Of a stretch of DNA of 33,045 nt, positions 18,912-21,856 are shown one piece after another. Source of the stretch: a virus; IMG/VR virus record IMGVR_UViG_3300049002_000030, positions 1-33,045 of that record, one strand, 5' to 3'. The notes under the pieces are model-generated. The model made no database searches, was not told the DNA's origin, and worked only from the letters and a program-made list of their open reading frames with translations. Each line of letters begins with the position of its first letter. Positions within the stretch are counted from its first letter, which is position 1. The position numbers and the translations under genes are program-made.

Positions 18912-20708
18912 GTGCCGCGCACCCTGGTGCGCGCGCCGGAACATGACCGGCTGCGCAGCTTGGGCGGCTTGGCCTGTGGGTGGATCGAGTTCTTCGTCCG
19001 GCATGGGCCAGGTGCCGTTCAGGGCATGGAGATTACGTTCGGCGACGAGTTCGCCGGCTTCGTTATGGACTCGTACGCCCTGCTTCCTGAGGGCAAGCGT
19101 ATCTATGACCATGTATTTCTGTCGCGCCCGAAGGGCACGAACAAAAGTGGATTAGCTTCATATTTGGCGCTCTTCGAGGCACTGGGCCCGTGTCGCTTTG
19201 CCGGCTTCGCTGAGGGCGGCGAGGTCTACGAGGATCCGTGGGGCCTGGGGTTCTCGTACGAATACGAACGTGGCGAACCCATGGGTAAACCGGTTCATGT
19301 GCCTATGATTCGTATTATGGCCACCGAAGAAGGACAGCCCCTAGCGCTGGATACGCCCGTACCGACCCCGTCCGGCTGGACGACGGTCGGCGAACTCACG
19401 GTTGGTAACACCGTGTTCGACGCCGACGGCTGGCCACGCCAGGTGGCCCGTGAGACGCGGGTGATGGAGGGGTTGGACTGCTACGCGGTCACCTTCTCCG
19501 ACGGAGAGCGCGTCGTCTGCTCCGGGTCGCACCTGTGGACGCTGGAGCGGCGCAACGGCAAGGGCACCGCCTTCGAGAAGGTCACGGTTACCACCGAGCG
19601 CCTCGCCGGCGACTACATCCGCGGTGGCAGCCAGGGCGGTATGACCGGCCTGCGCTACCGCGTGGCGGCCGGGGTCGAGTGGCAGGTGCCCGAGGCGGAG
19701 CTGCCGATCGACCCGTACCTGCTGGGCATGTGGCTCGGCGACGGCAGCAAGTCGGACTCGAGCATCGCCTTCGACTACCGTCTCCGCGACGAGTACGAGG
19801 TGCTGCTCAAGCCCTTCCTGGGCGATCACGAGGAGCTGGTCTTCGCCAACGAGACCGGTAACTCCGGGGTCGTCAGGATCCGCCGCCGCAAGGGCCTTTG
19901 CGCCTTCGGTCACGAGTACGGCGACGACACGATCCACCGGGCGTGCGGGCCCTGTCGGCGCATCCGGAACAGCGGGTTCCGCAAGGAGCCAGAGGGGGTC
20001 CGCACCTCGACTTTGCGGGAGCGCCTGCGCGATGCCGGACTGCTGGGCTTCAAGCACGTACCGGCGGCCTACTTGCGCGCCTCCGCGGCCCAGCGGCACG
20101 CGCTGTTGCAGGGCCTGATGGACTCCGACGGGTGCTTCGTCCGGGCCAACAACGCGGTCAAGGCGACCTTCACCAATACCGACCGGCTGCTGATCGACGG
20201 CATCGAGGAGCTGCTCACCACGCTGGGCTACAAGTGGGCCGAGCGCTGGGATGAGCCAGTCAAGGCCTGGCGGGTCGAGTTCGTGGCCTGCGCAAGCAAG
20301 CCGCCTGCCCGGCTGGCACACAAGGTCGCAAAGCTGGACGTCCTGGGCGCGAACGCGCGGTCACGTCGCCGGCATGTGGCGAAGGTGGAGCGGGTCGAAC
20401 CCGTCCCGGTCAAGTGCATCGGGATCGACACCGACGACCACCTGTTCCTGGTGGGCCGGCGAGCCGTGCCGACGCACAATACCGGCAACGTCTACGACAC
20501 CATCTACTTCAACCTGACCGACGAGGACTGTCCGCTATCGCACGTGCCGGGCATCGACCCCGGCCGCACCCGGGTGTACCTGCCGTCCGGCGGCTTCGTA
20601 ATGCCGTCAACCGCCAGCTCGGCGGCCAAGGACGGCGGCAAGGAGACCTACGTGGTCTTTGTCTGGCCCCCCGCTGCCATTTGTAGCGGGGGGCCAGACA
20701 TTGACTGA
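18912..20708 (+). CDS. Terminase large subunit, N-terminal part, with intein; interrupted at Walker B
   Basis: This is the ATPase part of the phage DNA-packaging motor. N-extein residues 1-142 include the Walker A-like loop SRPKGTNKSG with Lys78. An intein occupies residues 143-523 and the extein resumes at Thr524 (TGNVYDTIYFN). The ATPase core then runs to KETYVVF, which should continue straight into the Walker B acidic residues DESH. Instead the frame enters a hairpin-containing insert and stops at TGA 20706-20708. The true Walker B and nuclease domain continue in another frame from 20717. Leu81 inside the Walker A loop is a rare TTA codon, and codons from about 19050 to 19337 are AT-richer than average. 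GTG start. Confidence 0.85.
   Translation: MPRTLVRAPEHDRLRSLGGLACGWIEFFVRHGPGAVQGMEITFGDEFAGFVMDSYALLPEGKRIYDHVFLSRPKGTNKSGLASYLALFEALGPCRFAGFAEGGEVYEDPWGLGFSYEYERGEPMGKPVHVPMIRIMATEEGQPLALDTPVPTPSGWTTVGELTVGNTVFDADGWPRQVARETRVMEGLDCYAVTFSDGERVVCSGSHLWTLERRNGKGTAFEKVTVTTERLAGDYIRGGSQGGMTGLRYRVAAGVEWQVPEAELPIDPYLLGMWLGDGSKSDSSIAFDYRLRDEYEVLLKPFLGDHEELVFANETGNSGVVRIRRRKGLCAFGHEYGDDTIHRACGPCRRIRNSGFRKEPEGVRTSTLRERLRDAGLLGFKHVPAAYLRASAAQRHALLQGLMDSDGCFVRANNAVKATFTNTDRLLIDGIEELLTTLGYKWAERWDEPVKAWRVEFVACASKPPARLAHKVAKLDVLGANARSRRRHVAKVERVEPVPVKCIGIDTDDHLFLVGRRAVPTHNTGNVYDTIYFNLTDEDCPLSHVPGIDPGRTRVYLPSGGFVMPSTASSAAKDGGKETYVVFVWPPAAICSGGPDID
19338..20480 (+). other. Class 3 intein with LAGLIDADG homing endonuclease in terminase
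   Basis: This 381-codon intein begins with Pro1 (PLALDTPVPTPSGWTTVGEL) instead of Cys or Ser. Block B is CSGSHLWTL with Trp at intein residue 67, two after the His. Block F has Cys360 (VKCIGIDTDDHLFL) in place of the usual Asp. Block G is PTHN with Thr379 before His380-Asn381, and the +1 extein residue is Thr. Pro1, the Trp-Cys-Thr triplet and Thr+1 together define class 3 inteins, whose branch forms through the block F Cys. The homing endonuclease has two LAGLIDADG motifs (terminase residues 269-278 and 398-407) that keep their acidic residues, and between them a C-x3-H...C-x2-C cluster (330-348). Confidence 0.88.
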
Positions 20709-20716
20709 CACCATTT
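20661..20716 (+). other. 56-nt hairpin insert in terminase, candidate translational bypass element
   Basis: The insert begins right after the TTT codon at 20658-20660 with a perfect 15-bp stem (20661-20675 with 20685-20699, loop of nine) and ends in a second TTT at 20714-20716. Coding resumes at GAT 20717 with DESHLYNTPELRRMH. The length is not a multiple of three, and both relevant frames have a stop inside (20706 and 20702). CCATTTG occurs in the loop and at the landing edge. Alternatives: small palindromic mobile element with a TTTG duplication, or a disabling insertion. Confidence 0.6.
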
Positions 20717-21856
20717 GATGAATCGCACCTCTATAATACGCCCGAATTGAGGCGTATGCATACGACGGTCACGCGGAACCTGGTCAAGCTGCGCGGAACG
20801 GCGTCGGAACCGTGGTACATCGAGACGACGACGATGTTTGCCCCCGGTGAGGATTCGGTCGCCGAGACCACATTCCGCGAGGCGGAATTGATCCGGGAGA
20901 ACAAGAAAAAGCGCGGCCGCATCAGAATGCTCTATGACCACAGGTGGGGCGACTGCCCCGACCTGACGGTCGAGGAGCAACTGATCGAGGCCATCAAGGA
21001 GGCCTTCGGCGAGGCCATCGAGTGGAACGACATCCCGTCGATCGTGGACGAGTTCTACTCGCTGAAGGCTGATCCGGCCGACAGCCGGCGCTACTTCCTC
21101 AACGCCGAGACGTCGTCGAAGGACACCTGGCTCCCGCTGCGTGACATCGACGCCTGCAAGGACGCGACCAGGTCGCTGCAACCCGGCGACGTGATCACGC
21201 TTGGATTCGACGGCTCGATCAACGACGACAGCACCGCCCTGGTTGCATGCAGGGTCGCCGATGGTCACCTGGAGCTTCTGCACATCGACGAGCGGCCGGC
21301 GGACCTGCCGCCGCACCGGGAGTGGAGCGTCGACGAGCCCGCGGTGGACGCCGCGGTGCAGCAGGCGTTCAAGACCTACCGGGTCGTGGGCTTCTACTGC
21401 GACCCGGCCATGTGGTCCAGCTGGATCGCGACCTGGCACAACCGCTGGGAGAAGCAGCTCAAGGCACGCGCCACGGCGGGTAAGCCGCTGGAGTTCCGGG
21501 CCAACATCCGGACCCGGATGGCGGCCGCGGTGGAGGCGTTCTACTTGGCGGTGAAGTCCACCGCCAAGGGGATGGCCACCGGTGATCCGACGCTGCGAGT
21601 GCTGTCGATCGTGCCACCGGAGGACCGCCCGGAGGGCGACGAGAACAAGCCGCTGATCCTGCGCCGGCACCTCGCCAACTGCTACGTCCGCAAGACCACC
21701 GAGGGCGATCTGCTGCGCAAGGAGCTGCCGAAAAGCCCTCGCAAGATCGACGCCGCGATGAGTTCCGTCCTGGCGTTCCAGGCCCGCAACGACGCGATCA
21801 AGGCCGGCGTCAAGACCGGTCCGCGCGCCAAGCGAATTCCCCGCCGGGTCCGCTAG
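20717..21856 (+). CDS. Terminase large subunit, C-terminal part (Walker B and nuclease domain)
   Basis: About 379 codons continue the terminase in a frame shifted by the 56-nt insert. It begins with the Walker B/catalytic residues DESHLY, then the coupling region (TVTRNL, EPWYIETTTMFAPGEDS). The RNase H-like nuclease domain follows with ITLGFDGSINDDSTALVACR and later acidic positions, including KIDAAMSSVLAF near the end. These nuclease residues look intact. Without ribosome hopping or another joining event, an isolated protein could start at ATG 20756 and would lack Walker B. The retained sequence with no other lesion suggests the full protein is still made or the break is recent. Confidence 0.8.
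   Translation, partial: DESHLYNTPELRRMHTTVTRNLVKLRGTASEPWYIETTTMFAPGEDSVAETTFREAELIRENKKKRGRIRMLYDHRWGDCPDLTVEEQLIEAIKEAFGEAIEWNDIPSIVDEFYSLKADPADSRRYFLNAETSSKDTWLPLRDIDACKDATRSLQPGDVITLGFDGSINDDSTALVACRVADGHLELLHIDERPADLPPHREWSVDEPAVDAAVQQAFKTYRVVGFYCDPAMWSSWIATWHNRWEKQLKARATAGKPLEFRANIRTRMAAAVEAFYLAVKSTAKGMATGDPTLRVLSIVPPEDRPEGDENKPLILRRHLANCYVRKTTEGDLLRKELPKSPRKIDAAMSSVLAFQARNDAIKAGVKTGPRAKRIPRRVR

Follow-up and report, generated by a model that had tools for sequence, protein, structure and literature searches.

The window analysed here, a viral record of 33,045 nt with 68% GC, contains on its plus strand a gene for the terminase large subunit (TerL, 18912-21856). The coding sequence of the N-extein (18912-19337) runs to ATEEGQ, a boundary placed by comparison with L003, a close relative that reads ATEEGQ-TGNVYD and has no intein. 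The intein (19338-20480; 381 codons, ending in VPTHN) carries a LAGLIDADG homing endonuclease domain; its first residue is proline (EEGQ/PLALDTP), the usual residue being cysteine, serine or alanine, and the residue that follows the intein is threonine. TerL coding sequence then runs from TGNVYD to KETYVVF (20481-20660) and includes a Shine-Dalgarno (SD)-like AAGGAG at 20640-20645. Its final codon is a TTT for phenylalanine (20658-20660), referred to below as the take-off codon, and directly behind it lies a non-coding gap of 56 nt (20661-20716), composed of a hairpin (20661-20699), a 14-nt tail (20700-20713) and a second TTT, the landing codon (20714-20716). The hairpin, whose pairing is supported by covariation, has a perfect 15-bp stem that starts immediately 3' of the take-off codon and in which 20661-20675 pairs with 20685-20699. 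Past the gap, the resumed TerL coding sequence (20717-21856) provides the DE of the Walker B motif and then the nuclease domain.

The frame that starts at 18912 and passes through KETYVVF ends at a TGA at 20706-20708. Past the gap, DESHLYNTPELRRMH restarts at 20717 in a different frame, open to 21856, which itself has stops within the insert at nucleotides 23 and 41 of the latter. The RNA fold of the hairpin reaches -40.9 kcal/mol (z = -7.9), and none of 200 shuffled sequences was equally stable. In L003, which has no insert either, KETFVVF-DESH is unbroken. A preliminary description of the window, made from sequence alone, had claimed a hairpin-led 56-nt insert between matched TTT codons at Walker B, stops within the insert in both read-through frames and restoration of Walker B upon deletion of the 56 nt. 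All of this holds for the window: the coordinates, the 15-bp stem and the frames were confirmed, and L003 reads as the deletion predicts. The intein with its homing endonuclease is present as described. It is also correct that no SD-like sequence directly precedes the landing site in the window, but a canonical one, the AAGGAG mentioned above, is found upstream of the take-off codon. No second copy of the palindrome occurs elsewhere in the window, neither Rfam families (at the gathering threshold) nor tRNAs were detected in it, and solved TerL structures, searched by sequence, gave no match.

The insert is not an isolated case. Together with the window, 23 distinct inserts were found, all at the Walker B motif of TerL, the other 22 belonging to actinobacterial, mostly Streptomyces, phages and prophages. 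Three groups of TerL are involved: group A (KETF..DES/DET), which includes the window, group B (NEGNRPTF..MDEVHH) and group C (GARPTF..VVCDEVHH and close kin). When viral contigs were queried with the C-terminal portion of TerL, the relatives L004 and L007 emerged, with different hairpins at nearly the same site; L005 and L006 carry an insert identical to that of L004. Of nine matches to a degenerate hairpin pattern among all IMG/VR contigs, eight lay at TerL Walker B, while a TerL-based search in the second group uncovered inserts in eight of 80 relatives, and more came from further scans and from Streptomyces genomes. The group B/C insert pattern matches exactly 4 of 393 Streptomyces genomes, every time at TerL; in a sample of 395 genomes from the wider class it has no match, and neither has the group A pattern. 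A relaxed group A scan returned mostly chance matches, and a covariance-model screen of whole actinobacterial genomes was not clean, with GC-rich terminators reaching 39 bits. The total of 23 is biased by the search patterns, some of which required TTT. A fair set was therefore defined of 15 inserts that were found by protein or DNA similarity, or were given at the start, without any TTT or hairpin pattern. Three insert-bearing records, L120, L234 and L301, stem from one IMG dataset (2933705211) and each carry a TerL insert, differing in sequence. Near the end of L203 (60-110) the TerL hairpin region appears a second time in garbled form, probably through an assembly artefact; the L203 hairpin itself is confirmed by the genome locus L270.

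The anatomy of the inserts is directly visible in the sequences. A TTT take-off codon immediately precedes the insert in 23 of 23 cases; in the fair set the proportion is 15/15, against 40 of 97 intact relatives, the other 57 of which have TTC (p = 8e-6, without correction for relatedness). The resumed sequence is immediately preceded by TTT in 11 inserts, TTC in 11 and ATC in one, and hence by a phenylalanine codon in 22/23. The exception is L004, where ATC leaves no cognate codon and an extra TTT lies out of frame. In 21 of the 23 gaps, the last part contains no other Phe codon in any frame. The window departs from the other inserts in that its interruption falls three codons later, after the F adjoining DE, the usual F position being occupied by tyrosine. 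Gaps measure 44-57 nt (n = 23), with residues modulo 3 of 0 (two), 1 (ten) and 2 (eleven), and even close kin differ in the frame that is required, as in L217 (50 nt), L234 (49 nt) and L204 (47 nt). Since all three frame classes occur, no single frameshift or readthrough event accounts for the inserts. Both relevant frames meet stops inside the gap in group B and in the window; neither does in group C and some members of group A. No stop codon adjoins the take-off codon in any insert: the nearest is the second codon (L150 and L178), and most group C gaps are free of stops.

In all folded cases the stem starts at the take-off codon or at most 3 nt from it. A structural alignment of 17 hairpins has 264 of 265 stem cells paired and compensatory changes in 10 of 16 pairs. 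For the 15 hairpins whose discovery did not depend on a hairpin pattern, the corresponding values are 234/235 and 8/16; this set contains 33 G.U cells and no A.C cell, and none of 2000 shuffles performed as well. The covariation of the stems demonstrates that an RNA hairpin is under selection, and the absence of A.C cells indicates that it is the structure of the sense-strand RNA that is maintained, rather than a palindrome in the DNA. Furthermore, a covariance model trained on group C hairpins only detects those of groups A and B (E from 4e-9 to 7e-4; 3.7e-5 for the window), and hairpin distance correlates with TerL distance (Mantel r 0.72, p 2e-4). None of the hairpins has a poly-T behind it.

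A second signal lies upstream of the take-off codon. Insert carriers of groups B and C mostly have GAG GGG at codons -7/-6, and codon -6 is GGG in 12 of 15 inserts compared with 1 of 60 intact genes; further upstream no such difference between carriers and intact genes is seen. Predicted pairing with the anti-SD is strongest 10-12 nt upstream of take-off (-8.4 versus -5.8 kcal/mol). The AAGGAG of the window occupies exactly the same register, -18 to -13 from the take-off codon, as the GAGGGG of other insert-bearing TerLs, despite its later take-off, whereas L004, L007 and L085 have AAGGA[A/G] at -9 to -4 instead. The register is evident from the sequences themselves; when phylogeny is taken into account, the tests of the SD and TTT associations all point in one direction but are weak in significance, with about 5 of 10 independent pairs on the tree pointing the same way, none the opposite way and a median p of about 0.06. 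The peptide upstream of take-off is conserved in carriers, but also in intact TerLs.

Strong purifying selection acts on the codons just past the gap, and the gene is alive: pN/pS is 0.12-0.16 over the first 30 codons past the gap and 0.21-0.28 over 250 codons, and the codons from the gap to DE are conserved. The distribution of the insert is patchy. Near relatives differ in its presence, and a tree of 116 TerLs implies at least 10 changes of insert state on well-supported branches and 15 overall, so that the insert must have been gained or lost often, as would be expected of a mobile cassette. It seems to behave like a mobile element that is tolerated because it is bypassed, although the mobility is inferred. 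The preliminary description had linked the insert to the homing endonuclease of the intein; this part is not supported, since carriers such as phage Ponzi are intein-free. No insert-specific endonuclease was found, and a homing endonuclease cassette as in T4 was considered and rejected, the HNH gene near the terminase genes occurring with and without the insert.

Ponzi is a cultured, infectious phage of Streptomyces lividans with a gap of exactly 50 nt, at a junction that reads ARPTF(TTT), hairpin to TTT, VVCDEVHH. Its TerL is annotated as two genes, gp42 and gp43, in neither of which the Walker B DE can be read. Some carriers may be decaying, as L275 has a further break in TerL. In the insert-free phage Success, eight tRNA genes, one of them for tRNA-Phe(GAA), immediately precede the terminase genes (L201:400-1458).

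Many related TerLs have another type of interruption, of 4-10 nt, at Walker A. For the phiHau3 terminase, bypassing at a UUA codon that follows KGWG has been noted as likely (PMC5009743, ref. 161). TTA-led breaks at KGWG occur in L124, L135, L136, L150, L165, L168, L170, L178, L187, L190, L195, L217, L282 and L285, and TTA-led Walker A breaks also in L259 (1619) and L300 (603). They take forms such as GWG/TTAGGGC/K, GWGK/TTAG/T and GWG/TTAGC/K, which resemble the published phiHau3 site, and their landing codons agree with take-off in all three positions or in two of them. L150, L178 and L217 combine the UUA-type Walker A interruption with a Walker B hairpin in one TerL. In phiHau3 a second interruption is present near Walker B (L300:905-945), GCC CGG/TCTTTAACGG/TCC ACG TTC GTA, in which CGG is both take-off and landing codon of a 10-nt gap with TTA within.

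Programmed translational bypassing of the insert is, in our opinion, the likely explanation, inferred from sequence without protein, RNA or reporter evidence. In this reading, a ribosome translating TerL would arrive at UUU with peptidyl-tRNAPhe(GAA) in its P site, whereupon the foot of a highly stable hairpin in the mRNA would fill the A site and block decoding. The SD-like sequence 13-18 nt upstream would probably hold the ribosome, the weak UUU pairing would open and the ribosome would let go. As the stem begins right at take-off and the tail typically measures about 9 nt, the hairpin may be passed while still folded, leaving mostly about 9 nt to be crossed. The peptidyl-tRNA would then re-pair at the first UUU or UUC beyond the hairpin, and translation would restart with V-V-F-DE or DE, yielding a full-length TerL with an intact Walker B. 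A ribosomal hop from TTT to TTT had already been suggested for the window. This idea gains support from the 22 further inserts, the covariation, the selection, the constant Phe landing codon despite a variable gap frame, and a cultured phage with a 50-nt insert; the hop itself and the order of its steps remain inferences. Several points speak against bypassing: L004 has no cognate landing codon, there is neither a stop directly after take-off nor an identified nascent-peptide signal, the stability of the stem greatly exceeds that of the gene 60 elements, the SD and TTT associations are only weakly significant once phylogeny is considered, and the TTT..TTY repeat is equally compatible with removal of the gap from the RNA.

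The latter is the rival that survives best. The gap might be excised from the mRNA, as a tiny hairpin intron or by cutting and religation, after which an ordinary ribosome would read the joined message. Joining at the TTT..TTY repeat would give an identical protein, and a sense-strand RNA hairpin is indeed under selection. However, an intron of this form or size is not known to us, no recognisable group I, group II or other known intron structure was detected with Rfam at the gathering threshold, and the SD-like sequence at a fixed upstream distance together with the constant UUU implicates the ribosome. We regard RNA removal as unlikely, while it remains possible. There is slightly less room, though still some, for a TerL made of two cooperating pieces, one an ATPase stub and the other a C-terminal part with a start of its own, with a regulatory or terminator-like hairpin in between. 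The annotation of Ponzi has such a form and in group B an ATG is available at the M of MDE, but groups A and C lack a usual start codon before DE in the resumed frame, the first in-frame start of the window is a TTG at 20747, beyond DESHLYNTPE, the codons between gap and DE are conserved, and the hairpins are not followed by poly-T.

The preliminary description had offered as its alternative a small palindromic element that killed a prophage gene, considered here as a palindromic mobile DNA element that knocked out TerL in defective prophages. The patchy distribution with its at least 10 gains or losses, the short direct repeat flanking the insert and the possible decay of some carriers (the further break in L275) would fit, but this account is not supported and seems very improbable: Ponzi is infectious, purifying selection acts past the gap, the wobble pairs are exclusively of the sense-RNA kind, and hairpins diverge together with TerL, no copy being found outside it in any scan. 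A dispersed palindromic element of the MITE or REP type was rejected, as neither exact nor relaxed patterns detected any coding copy beyond TerL in viral contigs, GTDB genomes or whole Streptomyces genomes, the only matches being hairpins that resemble terminators or arise by chance. Programmed -1/+1 frameshifting or stop-codon readthrough across the insert, for which the stop-free gaps of group C and some group A members could be quoted, is practically ruled out, as the required frame differs between near relatives, both relevant frames contain stops in group B and in the window, and about 16-19 added residues would split the Walker B strand.

Returning to bypassing, a bolder reading can be formulated: that these are mobile bypass cassettes in Streptomyces-type phages, residing in the catalytic motif of an essential motor gene, some phages adding a UUA-type Walker A interruption, and that the ribosome, helped by an upstream SD-like tether, hops over an intact hairpin from UUU to the first Phe codon by a mechanism distinct from the sliding in gene 60. 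That all of these elements hold together is a proposition on which we would not lean to either side. Efficient bypassing in bacteria and phages has rested for decades on one well-studied example. If the proposal is true, at least 23 natural elements with varied stems, gaps and landing codons would make the rules of take-off, hairpin crossing and landing testable, and the presence of a culturable S. lividans phage among the carriers would open an experimental route. An annotation as split gene or pseudogene may conceal an intact TerL, and the question arises why the catalytic motifs of the phage packaging motor gather such elements.

The hairpin-led Walker B insert of 44-57 nt represents a new form, bypassing in a terminase at UUA having already been proposed for phiHau3; no report of the hairpin inserts was found in the literature searched, which largely leaves out subscription journals. 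Bypassing in T4 gene 60 proceeds from GGA to GGA, the take-off codon being followed by UAG, and requires a nascent-peptide signal and a 5' stem-loop (PMC5009743, PMC11194080); the processivity of its sliding stays constant for up to 56 nt (PMC11194080), a finding with which the gap range of the TerL inserts agrees. Both systems concern a phage gene with a non-coding gap of about 50 nt (50 in Ponzi), cognate take-off and landing codons and a take-off stem-loop, and a link to mobility exists for the T4 insert too (PMC5009743). Unlike gene 60, the TerL inserts occur in a different gene and in many copies, use UUU/UUY without an adjacent stop, have a far more stable hairpin that lies entirely downstream of take-off, and possess an SD-like element before take-off, the window having none just before landing. 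The UUA site of phiHau3 or StrepC.1 is also found in the TerL of a Streptomyces phage, where it interrupts an ATPase motif between matched codons behind an SD-like sequence, but its gap is at most 10 nt, it has no hairpin and it affects chiefly Walker A, whereas the inserts described here are longer, hairpin-led and placed at a UUU codon of Walker B. For plaA of Prevotella loescheii a bacterial translational hop has been reported as well, over a shorter distance (29 nt) in a different gene, and was not followed up (PMC5009743). Finally, the mitochondrial byp elements of Magnusiomyces are likewise short, mobile-like inserts tolerated through bypassing; these are spread over many genes per genome, with an unused A-site codon and little dependence on context (PMC5009743), while the TerL inserts are confined to one site in one phage gene.
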